Source of the DNA: an uncultured Cohaesibacter sp.
GTDB lineage: Bacteria > Pseudomonadota > Alphaproteobacteria > Rhizobiales > Cohaesibacteraceae
Reading direction: 5' to 3'
DNA: 64,000 bases
Assembly (NCBI RefSeq): GCF_963664735.1
Contig: NZ_OY761553.1
Span: forward strand, 4,523,001-4,587,000
This document shows positions 6,755 through 23,310 of this stretch, piece after piece. The notes below the pieces were generated by a model. The model ran no database searches, was not told the DNA's origin, and saw only the letters and a list, made by a program, of their open reading frames with translations. The position numbers and the translations under genes are program-made. Each line of letters opens with the position of its first letter. Positions within the stretch are counted from its first letter, which is position 1.

Positions 6755-7654
6755 GTGGTCAGTATGACGGAAAAGCTGCATGCCAATGCTGTTGGTCTTG
6801 ATTCGCGCAAGCCGCTGGAGGTTGCTGGCTTGCTCGTTGAAAGTCAGGTCGAAGCGGCGGGTGTGGTTGCCAGTGTTCTCCCCGAATTGTGCGTAGGTGC
6901 TGACTATATGGCTACTTCCTTGCGAGAGGGAGGGGCTTTGATCTACGCCGCAGCCGGGTCATCTGCGTTGATGATGCTGGCCGATGCACTCGAGCTTGGT
7001 GGGACGTTCGGAATAGAGCCCGGAGCTGTGCGTGTTCTGATGGCTGGTGGAATTCCAACCAATTTTCAGATGCCCGGTGATACCGAAGACGAAACTGACA
7101 CTCTGGCTGTCGCTCTTGCTGATGTCTCTGCAAAGGATACCCTTGTTGCGGTGTCTGCCAGTGGCTGCACTCCTTACACTCTCGAAGCAACCCGCATTGC
7201 CAAAGAGAAAGGAGCCCGGATTGTGACGATTGCTCACAATCCGGATACGCCACTGCTTGCGTTGGGGGATTGTTCAATCCTGCTCAGGACCGCGCCGGAG
7301 GTTGTTTCCGGATCGACCCGCATGGGTGCGGCAACCGCTCAGAAAATTGCCATGAATACAATGTCGACCTTGATGGCTATTCATCTCGGGCATGTTCATG
7401 ACGGAATGATGGTCAATCTGAAGGCCGATAACCACAAGCTCAAGAAACGGGCGAGCCAAATCGTGCAAATCATTGCCGATGTGTCCGAACAACAAGCCGA
7501 AAATGCGTTGTCGCTTGCCGGTGACAACGTCAAACTTGCCAGTCTTATTGCTGCTGGCAATATCTGCGTCGAGAAAGCTCAGGCCCTTCTTGATGGCGAG
7601 CACGGAAATTTGCGAGGCGCTCTTGGGCGGCTTGCACAATCAAATCAGTTTTAA
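6755..7654 (+). CDS. murQ: N-acetylmuramic acid 6-phosphate etherase
   Basis: About 299 residues. GTG at 6755 is preferred because GGGGAG sits six bases before it; ATGs at 6749 (too close) and 6764 are in frame. MurQ cleaves the lactyl ether of MurNAc-6-P to give GlcNAc-6-P, the substrate of NagA. The single SIS domain contains IYAAAGSSALMM, and the family signature APEVVSGSTRMGAATAQK followed by LKADNHKLKKRA is clear. Glutamates corresponding to the catalytic pair are kept (LELGGTFG and DTEDETD), although the usual PPTFG is GGTFG here, so it is a somewhat divergent member. It opens the plus-strand uptake operon. Confidence 0.85.
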   Translation: MVSMTEKLHANAVGLDSRKPLEVAGLLVESQVEAAGVVASVLPELCVGADYMATSLREGGALIYAAAGSSALMMLADALELGGTFGIEPGAVRVLMAGGIPTNFQMPGDTEDETDTLAVALADVSAKDTLVAVSASGCTPYTLEATRIAKEKGARIVTIAHNPDTPLLALGDCSILLRTAPEVVSGSTRMGAATAQKIAMNTMSTLMAIHLGHVHDGMMVNLKADNHKLKKRASQIVQIIADVSEQQAENALSLAGDNVKLASLIAAGNICVEKAQALLDGEHGNLRGALGRLAQSNQF

Positions 7655-7716
7655 AAATAATACTCGGAACCAACCGAGGATCGGGCAATCCTAAACAGAG
7701 AGGTTCAACGTTCATT

Positions 7717-8964
7717 ATGAAATTAACTCCAATCGCTCTTTTGGCTGCAACATTGCTTAGCAGTGCCGCCTATGCGGAAGACGTTACCCTGACCATCGAA
7801 AGCTGGCGTAACGATGACCTGAAGCTTTGGCAGGAAAAGATTATTCCAGCCTTTGAAGCCAGCAATCCCGGCATCAAGCTGAAATTCACCCCGATGGCTC
7901 CAACCGAGTATAACTCCGCCATCAACTCCAAGCTGGGTGCAGGCACTGCCGGTGACCTGATCAGCTGCCGCCCGTTCGATGCTTCCCTTGCGCTCTACAA
8001 GGCCGGTTATCTGGAAGATCTGACCAGCATGGAAGCCATGAGCAACTTCTCTGACGTTGCCAAAGCTGCTTGGCAGACCGACGATGCTGCTCATACCTTC
8101 TGCGTGCCGATGGCATCGGTTATCCATGGCTTCATCTACAACAAGGACGCCTTTGACGAGCTTGGTCTGACGGTTCCTGAAACAGAAGATGAATTCTTCT
8201 CTGTTCTGGACAAGATCAAGGCTGACGGCACCTATATTCCTATGGCTATGGGCACCAATGACCAGTGGGAAGCTGCCACCATGGGCTATCAGAATATTGG
8301 CCCGACCTACTGGAAAGGCGAGGAAGGCCGTCTTGCTCTGATCAAGGGCACCCAGAAGCTCACCGACCCTCAGTGGACCGAGCCATATGCTGTGCTGCAT
8401 AAATGGGCACCATATCTGGGCGATGGCTATGAAGCACAGACCTATCCGGACAGTCAGAACCTGTTCACCCTTGGTCGCGCTGCCATTTATCCTGCCGGTT
8501 CATGGGAAATCGCCATGTTCAACGAACAGGCTGATTTCAAAATGGGTGCCTTTAAGCCTCCTGTTAAAGCCAAGGGCGATAGCTGCTATATCTCCGACCA
8601 TGTTGATATCGGCATTGGCATGAACACCAAGACAGCCAATCCGGAAGCTGCCAAGAAGTTCCTTGCCTGGGTAGCATCGCCTGAATTTGCCGAGATCTTT
8701 GGTAACGCTCTGCCTGGTTTCTTCCCGCTTTCCAAGGCTCCGGTCAAGATCAGCGATCCGCTTGCTGAGGAATTCGTAAGCTGGCGTGGTGATTGCGAAA
8801 CCACGATCCGTTCTACCTATCAGATCCTGTCTCGTGGTACGCCAAACCTTGAAAACGAAACCTGGGGCGCTTCGGTTGCCGCCATCAAGGGAACTTCCAC
8901 CCCTGAGGAACTGGGCAAGAAGCTGCAGGACGGCCTGGATAGCTGGTATAAACCCCAGAACTAA
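7717..8964 (+). CDS. ABC transporter sugar-binding protein (CUT1, family 1)
   Basis: 415 residues with a clear Sec signal peptide (MKLTPIALLAATLLSSAAYA, cleavage after AYA). The mature part is a family-1 solute-binding protein: WQEKIIPAFEASNPGIKL near the start, GTAGDLISCRPFDAS, then FYNKDAF-type and AAIYPAGSWE segments. It acts in the periplasm, delivering a sugar or short oligosaccharide to the permeases encoded next. Next to murQ and nagA a GlcNAc- or MurNAc-containing ligand is likely (inference). Two cysteines in the mature chain (SCRP and HTFC) may form a disulfide. Confidence 0.9.
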   Translation: MKLTPIALLAATLLSSAAYAEDVTLTIESWRNDDLKLWQEKIIPAFEASNPGIKLKFTPMAPTEYNSAINSKLGAGTAGDLISCRPFDASLALYKAGYLEDLTSMEAMSNFSDVAKAAWQTDDAAHTFCVPMASVIHGFIYNKDAFDELGLTVPETEDEFFSVLDKIKADGTYIPMAMGTNDQWEAATMGYQNIGPTYWKGEEGRLALIKGTQKLTDPQWTEPYAVLHKWAPYLGDGYEAQTYPDSQNLFTLGRAAIYPAGSWEIAMFNEQADFKMGAFKPPVKAKGDSCYISDHVDIGIGMNTKTANPEAAKKFLAWVASPEFAEIFGNALPGFFPLSKAPVKISDPLAEEFVSWRGDCETTIRSTYQILSRGTPNLENETWGASVAAIKGTSTPEELGKKLQDGLDSWYKPQN

Positions 8965-19629: not shown

Positions 19630-21039
19630 TCATTTTGAGTGAGTAGCGTTTAGGTCCGTTTGCTCTTTGAGGAACGGGTCAACAACAGTGTCGATAAATG
19701 CCTGAACCTGCCTTGAAGCCATGCCGGTGAATTTTTCTGGCTTGACGATTTCGTCGATGTCGTCCTTCGAGAGAGGAATGTCCGGACAAGCTGCAATCCT
19801 TTCGAGGATGTTGTTGTCCAAGCCTTCAGCCCGAACTCTTTGAACGGTCTGCATGCTCATTTCCTTGAGAACGTGATGCACCAGTTGCCTGTCAGCGCCT
19901 TTCTTGGTGGCTTCCATGATGATGTTCTCGGTCGCCATGAAGGGGAGTTCCTGCTCGAGATTGCGCTTGATCATCTTGTCATAGACCATGATGCCAGACG
20001 TCATTTTCAGCATTTTCTCACACAGAGTGTCGGCCGCCATGAAGATATTTTCCATTCCGATGGTGCGCATGGGGAGATTGTCGCATGTTTGCTCCAGCAT
20101 CTCCTGACCCGTCGACTGAAACATTCCGGGGAGAATTGTAATGAGATATTTGGCATAGCCGACCAGATCTTCTGCGATCCATGGATTGCGCTTGTAAGCC
20201 ATAGTGCTTGATCCCACCTGATCGGCAGGAACCGGCTCTTCCAGTTCCTTCATCATTGCAAGGATACGGATGTCATTGCCCATCTTCTGGGCAGTCTCTG
20301 CAATTCCGGCGACTGCGGCGAGCAACTGGGTTTCCACCTTGCGTGTATATATTTGCGAAGTGATTGGCATTAGCTTCGAGAAGCCAAGTTTTTCGGAAAA
20401 GCGTTTGTCCAGTTGTTCGACCTTGTCTGGGTCTTCATCCAACAAGGCGTAGAATGAGGCCTGTGTTCCCGTGGCCCCTTTGAGCCCGCGGAAATACATG
20501 TTGTCGATCTTTTCCTGCATGGCGATGACATCGAAGATGGCATCTTGCAGCCAGACTGCGGCCCGCTTGCCGACGGTGACGGGCTGAGCTGCTTGCAGGC
20601 GGGTATAACCAAGGATCGGCATGTCTTTGTATTTGTCGACAAAGTCACGCAGATTGGCGATGACCTTTATCATCTTGCCGATGAGGAGCAGGGTTGCTTC
20701 CCGTTGCAGGATCAAGGTCGTGTTATCGATCAGGTCGCTGGTCGTTGCTCCCAGATGAATGATCGGCTCTGCCAATGGCACTGTCCTGCCAAACTCCTCG
20801 ATGGCGGCAATGGTGACATTGCCATATTTCTGGCGGAGCTCTTCGAGCAGATCAAGATCAATCTTTTCAAGATTGTCGCGCATCTGATTGAGCTGCGCGT
20901 CGGTGATATCAAGTCCGACCTCTTGTTCGGCTTCGGCCAAAGCCAGCCAGATGCGTCTGAAGATCTTGATTTTGAACTTGTCCGTGAGGAGATATTTCAT
21001 CTCCTCACTGGTGGTGTTTCGTAAGTAAATGTAATCCAT
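19630..21039 (-). CDS. Adenylosuccinate-lyase-like enzyme lacking catalytic histidines (fumarase/aspartase superfamily)
   Basis: 469 residues that follow the animal ADSL type of adenylosuccinate lyase from end to end: FKIKIFRRIWLALAEAEQ, IIHLGATTSDLIDNT, FRGLKGATGTQASF, LKELEEPVP, the mobile loop GSSTMAYKRNP (Ser277/278) and ELPFMATENIIM. The two catalytic histidines of human ADSL are not there: AHVHTFG is replaced by AAIEEFG (about residues 78-84), and the general-acid segment FTHFQPAQ reads YTRLQAAQ (Arg147). The phosphate-side ERTLDD segment reads EQTCDN. The Ser-loop chemistry that releases fumarate may remain, but on another substrate (inference). It is downstream of dcuC with an eight-base gap. 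A housekeeping PurB role is unlikely. Confidence 0.82.
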   Translation of the reverse strand: MDYIYLRNTTSEEMKYLLTDKFKIKIFRRIWLALAEAEQEVGLDITDAQLNQMRDNLEKIDLDLLEELRQKYGNVTIAAIEEFGRTVPLAEPIIHLGATTSDLIDNTTLILQREATLLLIGKMIKVIANLRDFVDKYKDMPILGYTRLQAAQPVTVGKRAAVWLQDAIFDVIAMQEKIDNMYFRGLKGATGTQASFYALLDEDPDKVEQLDKRFSEKLGFSKLMPITSQIYTRKVETQLLAAVAGIAETAQKMGNDIRILAMMKELEEPVPADQVGSSTMAYKRNPWIAEDLVGYAKYLITILPGMFQSTGQEMLEQTCDNLPMRTIGMENIFMAADTLCEKMLKMTSGIMVYDKMIKRNLEQELPFMATENIIMEATKKGADRQLVHHVLKEMSMQTVQRVRAEGLDNNILERIAACPDIPLSKDDIDEIVKPEKFTGMASRQVQAFIDTVVDPFLKEQTDLNATHSK

Positions 21040-21047
21040 TGATAGAC

Positions 21048-22328
21048 CTATGCAAATGCGACGAGCAGAGCAACAATTGCTCCGAGGACCATGGGCAGCG
21101 CCGTTCTTTTGGCGATGGCCACCGGACTAATCGCGGCGTAACCGGCGCAAATAATGGTGGCTCCGGCGATCGGGGACATCGCGCGCCCCAACGCGCCACC
21201 AAGCGGGGCCATGGTGCCCATGGTCGATATCATTAGTCCAATGTCAGGGGCGTGAGGCGTAACAGCTTCGTTGAATGCCATTGCAGCCGCTTCACCACTG
21301 CCGGTAACCACTGCCATCAGGAATGGCCCAAAGGAAATGGCAACTTTTGCAAGACCATCAACGCTCATGAGCAGATTGTTGAAAGCGTCGACCAGTCCGA
21401 TCAGTTTCATGCCTGCTACGAACACGCCTGCGCCGATGATGATGCCCAGAATACTGCCATAGGCACGTCCCATTCCGTTGAAGAACTCTTCGGAGGCTTT
21501 TGCCGGGGAGACGCGGGCAACGATGAAGGCAATTACTGACCCTATGAGCATCGCATGGGAAATTCTGATTTCGGCAATCCAGGGAACTGTAGCTTTTACC
21601 GCCGTGCTGGAGCCGATAAGAAGGATGGCCAGAGGGATGACCGGGACGATCACATGCAACGGTTTGATCTTGGCTTCATCCTGGTTAGCTTCTTCAAGCT
21701 TCTCCTCATCAAAGCAATCTTTGTCTTCTTTGAGAAACTTGGCCACAACCCACATGGTAATGCAAACGGTCACCAAAGCAGCGAAGGTGTAGGGGGCGTG
21801 ATGTCTGACAAGATCCGCAGGGGTCGTGCCGTCATTCATCAGCTTCGAGACGAATGAGAAGTGATAATAGCTCGGATTGAGCAGACCACCGAATGTTCCT
21901 GCAATTACGGCACTGGCGGCAATGGCTCGTGATACACCCATCGAGATCAGCAAAGGGATCAAAATGGCACCAACAGCTGCGGCAATGCCTGAAGCACTTT
22001 GCAATGCGATCGCTATGAGGAATACGACCACAATCGTTGCCGGAATGATGATGGCGCGCAGTGGCTTCAGCCCCTTGATCAAGAAATTGATCAGCTGTTT
22101 ATCACATCCCGTTAGCTTGAGCACAAATGCAAAACCCATGGCGGAGCAAATCGGCTCAATCATGCGGCCCGAGCCCATCTTGTCGGTAAAAGCCTGCAAT
22201 CCAGTCAGAATGTCACCTGACAACAGGCACATTAATAGCCCTGATGTGATCAGAACCAGCCGCGTTTCATATTGCTTGATGAGTAAAACCACTGTGGCTA
22301 CTACAATCAAAATTCCCACGTAAATCAT
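21048..22328 (-). CDS. dcuC: DcuC-type anaerobic C4-dicarboxylate transporter
   Basis: 426 residues from the ATG at 22328, which has GGAG at good spacing; a GTG at 22340 is too close to its GGAG. Around 12 hydrophobic segments fill the protein, with conserved pieces such as GGLLNPSYYHF, SASGIAAAVGAILIPL and SGEAAAMAFNEAVTPHA. DcuC carriers exchange fumarate, succinate, malate or aspartate across the inner membrane under anoxic conditions. It is co-transcribed with the lyase downstream and divergent from a Crp/Fnr-family regulator, with an FNR-type box between them. Confidence 0.85.
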   Translation of the reverse strand: MIYVGILIVVATVVLLIKQYETRLVLITSGLLMCLLSGDILTGLQAFTDKMGSGRMIEPICSAMGFAFVLKLTGCDKQLINFLIKGLKPLRAIIIPATIVVVFLIAIALQSASGIAAAVGAILIPLLISMGVSRAIAASAVIAGTFGGLLNPSYYHFSFVSKLMNDGTTPADLVRHHAPYTFAALVTVCITMWVVAKFLKEDKDCFDEEKLEEANQDEAKIKPLHVIVPVIPLAILLIGSSTAVKATVPWIAEIRISHAMLIGSVIAFIVARVSPAKASEEFFNGMGRAYGSILGIIIGAGVFVAGMKLIGLVDAFNNLLMSVDGLAKVAISFGPFLMAVVTGSGEAAAMAFNEAVTPHAPDIGLMISTMGTMAPLGGALGRAMSPIAGATIICAGYAAISPVAIAKRTALPMVLGAIVALLVAFA

Positions 22329-22460
22329 GCTATTCTCCACTTCTCCAGCACTTGCGGGAAAACATATCGAGATGCTGCTCTCGGAGATGTGATGGCCATC
22401 ACCAAGTTTTCGATTTGAGCGGTTTTTCTAAGCGGGCTTTTGATTTGTGGGAATTTATAC

Positions 22461-22474
22461 TTGACTTGAATCAA
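22461..22474. promoter_or_regulatory. FNR/FixK-type box
   Basis: TTGACTTGAATCAA matches the FNR consensus TTGAT-N4-ATCAA at nine of ten defined positions. It is almost midway between the starts of dcuC (133 bases) and the Crp/Fnr-family regulator (141 bases), so it could activate either or both when oxygen is low. Confidence 0.65.
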
Positions 22475-22614: not shown

Positions 22615-23310
22615 TTGACTGATTTACTAAACAAAAGCTTTGTGAGCAGATTGCCGTGGCTGGATGTTCCCGCAACAAAACTGGAAGATTTGTTTGAAGC
22701 GAACGGGGCGCATCGCAGAATTCATAAGGGTGGAGTTGTCAAGCACGCGCAAGAGCCCAATGAATATCTGCATTTTTTGAAGTCCGGTCTTTGCTATAAC
22801 TTCACAATCAATGATGAAGGCGCGAAGAATATCAGCAGACTATTGACGCCGGGGAGCATCTTCGGCGAGGTGACTTCTGTCGTTGGGCCCAATGGTGCTT
22901 CTTTGACTTATACGCACGCAGTGGTGGATTCTGATATTTATATGATCAAGTATTCCGCATTTTTGGACTTGATCGTGGGAGATAAGGATCTCGTTCATTA
23001 CGCTCTGGAGTCCTATGCCTGGCGCGTTGGTGCCTACAATCTATCGATTTTTATCAAGAATACTTTTTCTATTGAACAACGTATTGCGCACCTGCTGATA
23101 TCCATTTCTGATGATAGCAGTGATCAGAGTGAGGACGGCTTAAGGAAACTCTATTTTCAGCTAACCCATCAGCAGATTGGGGAGATGGTGGGGGTGTCTA
23201 GAGAGACTGTTTCCCGCACACTCTCTAAGTGGAAGAAGATGCATCTGACCTCGGGTCAGGGTGAACTGACGATCAATGTGACCAGATTGAAACAAGTTCT
23301 GCAATCTTGA
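22615..23310 (+). CDS. Crp/Fnr family transcription regulator
   Basis: 231 residues. An N-terminal cyclic-nucleotide-binding-like beta barrel (to about residue 120) is followed by a dimer helix and a C-terminal helix-turn-helix with LTHQQIGEMVGVSRETVSRTLSKW. There is only one cysteine in the whole chain, so it cannot carry an FNR-type iron-sulfur cluster; it may sense another signal. The start is assigned to TTG 22615; a GTG lies nine codons further in. It is divergent from dcuC and probably regulates it. Confidence 0.85.
   Translation: MTDLLNKSFVSRLPWLDVPATKLEDLFEANGAHRRIHKGGVVKHAQEPNEYLHFLKSGLCYNFTINDEGAKNISRLLTPGSIFGEVTSVVGPNGASLTYTHAVVDSDIYMIKYSAFLDLIVGDKDLVHYALESYAWRVGAYNLSIFIKNTFSIEQRIAHLLISISDDSSDQSEDGLRKLYFQLTHQQIGEMVGVSRETVSRTLSKWKKMHLTSGQGELTINVTRLKQVLQS

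Follow-up and report, generated by a model that had tools for sequence, protein, structure and literature searches.

The window analysed here is a 64,000-nucleotide stretch of DNA from an uncultured Cohaesibacter sp. (contig NZ_OY761553.1, positions 4,523,001 to 4,587,000), and this work deals with three of its genes. The first, identified from its open reading frame, family models and alignments, encodes a PurB-derived lyase of 469 amino acids (19630-21039, minus strand), hereafter referred to as the lyase. The second, eight bases upstream on the same strand, encodes a DcuC-family C4-dicarboxylate carrier (21048..22328; the ATG at 22328 is conserved, and a GTG at 22340 is also open). The third is divergent (22615..23310, plus strand) and encodes a 231-residue regulator of the Crp/Fnr superfamily with the recognition helix SRETVSR. 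Two sites lie between dcuC and the regulator gene, a CRP-type palindrome (TGTGATGGCCATCACC, 22388..22403), which is 59 bp ahead of the dcuC ATG and has one mismatch to TGTGA-N6-TCACA, and an FNR-box-like sequence (TTGACTTGAATCAA, 22461..22474), also with one mismatch. A lyase with the same rewritten active site occurs in three of the 18 searched genomes of the window genus (the window genome, G001 and G003) and in Desulfuromusa kysingii, and we refer to these four members as the clade.

The original prediction had described the lyase as a look-alike of adenylosuccinate lyase (ADSL, the product of purB) along its whole length, and the alignments agree. The best solved relative, 5nx8, which we take to be a hominin ADSL, aligns with residues 10-460 (E 1.4e-114), and the domains Lyase_1 (PF00206, 82.2 bits) and ADSL_C (PF10397, 64.9 bits) are both present. 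PurB proteins of Deferribacterota reach up to 45% identity. With the purB model TIGR00928 the lyase scores 270.6 and its D. kysingii counterpart 292.4, both below the cut-off of 326.2, a threshold that proves nothing either way by itself, as it is passed with 383.3 by L109, an S-(2-succino) lyase (2SL) by context. The lyase does not reach two aspartase models (30.1 and 27.3 bits against cut-offs of 510 and 681.2), nor the nitrosuccinate lyase model NF052556 (72.4 against 650). Both catalytic histidine regions of the lyase are rewritten, as had been claimed, RHDVMAHVHTFG having become GNVTIAAIEEFG and THFQPAQ having become TRLQAAQ, and the described change of ERTLDD into EQTCDN is likewise found. 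The predicted serine-serine (SS) loop of the superfamily is present, as GSSTMAYKRNP in the window genus and GSSTMAFKRNP in D. kysingii. Its alanine, which replaces a consensus proline in the clade, is also found in most of the aligned canonical PurB rows, knowing that the consensus of the aspartase/fumarase superfamily is GSSxxPxKxN (PMC13411527).

To describe the active site, we compared the clade with 92 canonical PurB rows (79 from the genome-contig collection and 13 from the searched genomes), leaving out second copies of clade rows (L005, L105, L107, L108 and L112) and the distant L124. Conservation reaches at least 95% of the canonical rows in 120 columns, and 28 of these columns differ in every one of the four members. 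These include R20, H86, D87, H159, R303, R329, L331, S334 and R338 (human numbering), nine nucleotide-side positions that are invariant in the canonical rows, bar one gap at R20. That all nine fall among the 28 corresponds to a hypergeometric value of 6.6e-7, which is descriptive and not a test, since the nine were picked after the list had been seen. We assume that positions 20, 21, 86, 87, 111, 112, 158, 161, 241, 295, 297, 302, 331, 334 and 338 are correctly numbered for human ADSL, in which R20, S334 and R338 presumably contact the nucleotide. The equivalent of H159, a histidine in all 92 canonical rows, is R147 in the four members, and R303 has become aspartate in all four, so that the new pocket, too, is conserved in part. 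The equivalent of H86, also a histidine in 92 of 92 rows, is N74 in the lyase and asparagine or tyrosine across the clade; Y21 is a threonine in the window genus and still a tyrosine in D. kysingii. On the other side of the site, T111, T158, Q161, Q241, S289, S290, K295, N297, E302, R396 and H400 are unchanged in 4/4, the retained loop residues being S277, S278, K283 and N285 in the lyase's own numbering.

Human ADSL residues 159, 289, 290, 303, 329, 396, 400 and 404 are named in passages of PMC6301967, according to which Ser289 or Ser290 is the proposed base, His159 is the acid (His159Asn being inactive), Arg303 touches the phosphate, Arg329 lies near the leaving group and is proposed to stabilise the anion of succinylaminoimidazolecarboxamide ribotide (SAICAR), and Arg396 and His400 order the loop. 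Read against this background, the alignment points to an enzyme with a largely intact succinyl half and catalytic loop and a replaced nucleotide half, and it indicates that the active-site changes are a trait of the clade, not noise. A missing leaving-group histidine is not unique to the clade and by precedent need not be fatal: the aspartase-type proteins of these genomes have glutamine or glutamate at the His159 place, and the nitrosuccinate lyase CreD has Leu170 where this histidine would be (PMC13411527).

The window genome, a complete 4.94-Mb assembly, has five Lyase_1 places, namely FumC, an aspartase-type protein with a cyclic-nucleotide-binding domain, ArgH, a canonical PurB and the lyase. 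The canonical PurB, for which the original prediction had advised a check, scores 504.4 bits against the cut-off of 326.2 and carries the motifs HDVIAFLTH, RSHGIHAEP and GSSAMPHKRNP, so that purine synthesis need not rely on the lyase. By its score, its lost histidines, its replaced nucleotide residues and this separate purB, the lyase is, on sequence grounds, not PurB. Aspartase-type proteins were seen in all four clade genomes, by model score in the window genome (L002) and by sequence recognition in the others (L094, L095 and L096); that of the window genome lies 0.4 bits under the TIGR00839 cut-off and over that of PRK12273. The latter protein (L136:7578-9539, contig C1) combines, in one open frame, an aspartase-type lyase with an N-terminal cyclic-nucleotide-binding domain, and adjoins an M20 hydrolase gene and a DcuC-family gene. 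The aspartase-type protein L094 of G003 appears to be built likewise, the domain having been scored for L136 only. Other superfamily members of the genus include L103 and L104 (G001 and G003), two CMLE/PurB-like lyases, so called by resemblance, with a lysine at the His159 place (GRTKIQHG), and L106 (G001), an ArgH-like lyase with no glycine ahead of both serines of the SS loop (QISSIMPQKRNP).

The clade is patchily distributed. Among 41 relatives searched at E<=1e-30, three matched, namely the window's own and, out of 17 further genomes of the genus, two (74-75% identity), and the lyase of D. kysingii DSM 7343 is 59% identical and has the same rewritten motifs. A genome-contig scan, which kept 80 of 175 relatives, yielded 79 loci with canonical PurB motifs (38-45% identity) and one, from D. 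kysingii, with the rewritten ones; it used two peptide patterns, so that members with neither pattern would be missed. In phylum and class searches, which sampled larger groups, the window genome alone matched among 398 phylum genomes (E<=1e-60), and 385 class genomes yielded the window genome together with G913 and G816, both with canonical motifs. Similarly, the D. kysingii phylum, with 297 genomes searched, contributed 13 matches (D. kysingii, 11 proteins with canonical motifs and the distant L124, with a histidine at the His159 place), and D. kysingii alone matched among 136 genomes of its order. L124 (G710) is a distant PurB-like protein with the loop GSSAMPHKMNT and with EEGDVS at the place of the PurB ERTLDD. 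No relative of the lyase was found in viral contigs, and the 418 plasmid records with a match all stayed below 60% identity, 41.6% being the highest among the 20 listed.

A quick tree of 62 rows (the four clade members, every second canonical genome-contig row, five Deferribacterota and up to fifteen named others) recovered the clade with a support of 100, inside the animal-type PurB rows and beside the Deferribacterota PurB (SH-aLRT 89, no bootstrap). The clade stem measures 1.47 changes per column and the program warns of long branches, so that the exact neighbour of the clade is unsure. Between the lyases, non-synonymous divergence is low (pN 0.06-0.27) and synonymous divergence is saturated (pS 0.73-0.78), showing that they are under purifying selection and kept functional. 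The patchy distribution and the tree suggest that the module described below probably spread horizontally, between phyla.

The regulator gene, dcuC and the lyase gene stand in the same order in all four loci, with the regulator gene divergent and a gap of 8-9 bp between dcuC and the lyase gene, confirming that the predicted link to dcuC is real; by eye, the genes beyond these three vary between loci. The carriers of the other three loci are 46-76% identical, and the regulators 42-54% identical, to the proteins of the window. The window carrier passes the DcuC models TIGR00771 (194.2 against 187) and NF037994 (394.2 against 100), and does not reach two E. coli-type DcuC models (100.3 of 513 and 83.7 of 623). 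Further dcuC genes of these genomes lie near aspartase genes. That of the window genome is followed by the genes of an M20 hydrolase and of the aspartase with the cyclic-nucleotide-binding domain, and the second one of G003 is near an aspartase gene. In D. kysingii, a racemase-aspartase fusion is followed by a DcuC gene and by two M20 hydrolase genes, and this aspartase-side carrier is 47% identical to the window carrier, compared with 46% for the module carrier. The fusion (L135:3575-5782) is a 735-residue frame joining an Asp/Glu racemase to an aspartase-type lyase, and its cluster looks like one for the use of D-aspartate or N-acyl-aspartate. On a plasmid of Roseomonas gilardii (NZ_CP015586.1, L110:6935-8299), the gene of an adenylosuccinate-lyase-family protein adjoins those of a dicarboxylate symporter and a dihydrodipicolinate-synthase-family protein, which makes another lyase-carrier pair. 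Apart from one E. coli promoter paper holding both terms (PMC8743547), we found no paper in the open-licence PMC literature that joins an ADSL look-alike with DcuC.

Between the regulator gene and dcuC, three loci have a perfect TGTGA-N6-TCACA palindrome, from which the window copy departs at one position. At most 0.95% of composition-shuffled regions reach one mismatch to this pattern, which was chosen after it had been seen. Across the window, two such one-mismatch sites were found for 2.15 expected, which is chance level, so that the weight of the palindrome rests on its conservation. The SRETVSR helix is invariant across the four regulators, and helices of this type suit TGTGA half-sites, as in CRP. 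The FNR box noted upstream in the original prediction, and control by FNR, found no support. First, the window has two FNR-box-like sites for 3.87 expected, no more than chance. Second, the site has one mismatch in the window and in G001, and nothing better than three mismatches was found in G003 and D. kysingii. Third, the alignment of the four regulators revealed no FNR-type N-terminal cysteine cluster, and the window regulator scores 41.3 against the FNR model cut-off of 228.

From these data we consider it somewhat probable, going by sequence and gene order, that the lyase is a neofunctionalised enzyme whose substrate, a small 2-substituted succinate other than a nucleotide, enters through DcuC and is cleaved to give fumarate, the three genes forming a self-contained catabolic module. 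The regulator would probably bind the palindrome to turn on dcuC and the lyase gene, and the carrier would import the substrate, a C4-dicarboxylate probably leaving the cell in return. The lyase, which is of bacterial PurB descent, would carry out the anti beta-elimination of its superfamily, with a serine of the SS loop (S277/S278) taking the C-beta proton, and with K283, N285, T99, T100, T146 and Q229 holding both carboxylates, while the substituent leaves to yield fumarate. R147, probably paired with E290, would stand in for the His-Glu acid relay. If so, the leaving group would have to depart without a proton from a histidine; a protonated amine, as with aspartase, or an anion would require no acid, knowing that a passage of PMC13411527 calls the need for leaving-group protonation unresolved. 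The substrate is most likely aspartate-like, i.e. aspartate or an N-substituted aspartate, because other DcuC genes of these genomes lie in aspartase clusters, and, given the aspartase-type proteins that these genomes already possess, N-substituted aspartates are our first choice. N-substituted aspartates are also what the ethylenediaminedisuccinate (EDDS) lyase makes, by joining amines to fumarate, an enzyme that we take to be of the argininosuccinate-lyase lineage.

This proposal preserves much of the original one, a lyase freeing fumarate from a non-nucleotide compound: the enzyme is not PurB, its substrate is very probably not a nucleotide and fumarate release is the likeliest chemistry, but FNR control is not supported. 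Nothing in the analysis speaks for the fumarate export that had also been suggested. As to the other suggested use, respiration without oxygen, with the E. coli-type fumarate reductase flavoprotein model, which passed its cut-off in one of 14 control genomes, neither the window genome nor D. kysingii had a match over the cut-off, and both had weaker matches of the succinate dehydrogenase/fumarate reductase type.

Several observations weigh against our proposal. The fumarate side is mildly altered, as S112 and the loop residue Ala291 have become threonines, both neighbours of Q241 are changed (G240S and T242I, turning TGQT into TSQI) and R404 is a lysine in the window genus. The equivalents of H86, R20 and Y21 differ between the window genus and D. 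kysingii, which may thus have different substrates. A positively charged R147 would sit badly beside a cationic amine if E290 did not neutralise it. The second DcuC gene of G001 is far from an aspartase gene, and the window carrier shares just 30-31% identity with the remaining DcuC paralogs of its genus. The aspartase-type proteins of the four clade genomes would make plain aspartate a redundant substrate. Finally, with a GC content of 0.46-0.52, the three genes of the window are not unusual for it (0.51), so that composition gives no sign of recent transfer.

An unlikely alternative is that ordinary aspartate or malate is the substrate, which would make the lyase a second aspartase (or fumarase), derived from PurB, and the module a convergent copy of the aspA-dcuA operon. 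The nucleotide pocket is indeed lost, the local aspartase-type proteins have no His159-type histidine, and the pairing of a single fumarate-forming lyase with a single C4-dicarboxylate carrier mirrors the aspA-dcuA and fumB-dcuB operons of E. coli (PMC10634366), which differ from the present module in that the latter has a DcuC-family carrier, a PurB-lineage lyase and its own Crp/Fnr-type regulator. However, an aspartase-type protein and FumC are already encoded in the window genome, D. kysingii already has its racemase-aspartase with a DcuC of its own, and the occurrence of the module in few genomes suits a rare substrate better.

It is rather improbable that the lyase cleaves a succinated thiol such as S-(2-succino)cysteine in the manner of 2SL, the identity that we had first expected. 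S-succino lyases do occur in the superfamily (PMC9706529), as enzymes with a non-nucleotide succinyl substrate, such as we propose for the lyase; a thiolate could depart unaided by a general acid, and R147 and D291 could hold an amino-acid leaving group. This identity was rejected because L109, on which our 2SL comparison rests (the two assayed 2SL proteins of PMC9706529 being left out), retains both histidine regions (KHSLMP and RTHGMQ) and is only 25% identical to the lyase. Moreover, no yxe-type set (acetyltransferase, amino-acid ABC carrier and deacetylase) common to the four modules was seen by eye; what does occur varies by locus, with a MarR-GNAT-like gene in L089 and isolated ABC genes within several kb in L009, L089 and L090. 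L109 itself (6986-8356, Pantoea piersonii plasmid NZ_CP115896.1) is annotated purB, has the neighbours of a yxe-type locus (an amino-acid ABC carrier, an amidohydrolase and a GNAT protein) and is probably a 2SL despite its score over the purB cut-off.

Less probable still is that a substituted succinate loses an anion such as nitrite or sulfite, as with CreD, a member of the superfamily that also lacks the leaving-group histidine and relies on a positively charged site (PMC13411527); R147 could bind such an anion. Membership in a CreD-type family was rejected, the nitrosuccinate lyase model being far from reached and the equivalent of the essential Arg341 of CreD, said to match Arg332 of an ADSL construct (PMC13411527), being a glutamine in all four members. 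Residue 332 of the 5nx8 chain aligns with Gln317 of the lyase. Inspection by eye of the neighbours, of which no family search was made, revealed no nitrite or sulfite gene.

It is very improbable that the lyase has lost all catalysis and acts as a sensor, or as a partner of DcuC or PurB, since the Ser-Ser, Lys and Asn of the SS loop, the fumarate-side Thr and Gln, and R396/H400 are unchanged in 4/4, even though both histidine regions are lost and ADSL His159Asn is inactive (PMC6301967). A divergent but working ADSL, i.e. an extra PurB, can practically be dismissed: the lyase is as long as animal/clostridial-type PurB, is homologous to a solved ADSL over its whole length and has the same ADSL_C domain, SS loop and fumarate-side residues, but it differs in its Arg for His159, its loss of H86/D87, R20, R303, R329, S334 and R338, its score under the purB cut-off, the separate canonical purB and the lack of purine genes recognised beside it.

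Returning to the lyase as a fumarate-releasing enzyme of a catabolic module, we tentatively advance, as a possibility to be taken seriously, that it represents a new activity of the PurB lineage, in which a lyase with no histidine acid liberates fumarate from an aspartate-like compound bearing an N- or S-substituent. Such a compound would be one that is so far not known to support bacterial growth or respiration, and the enzyme would work within a three-gene uptake-and-cleavage module moving between phyla. If true, an essential purine enzyme would have been rebuilt by altering its nucleotide-holding half, a compact case of the birth of a new enzyme function. The module would then show how fumarate can be obtained from a compound that bacteria may not be known to use, and would also provide a natural test of the superfamily elimination without a histidine acid.

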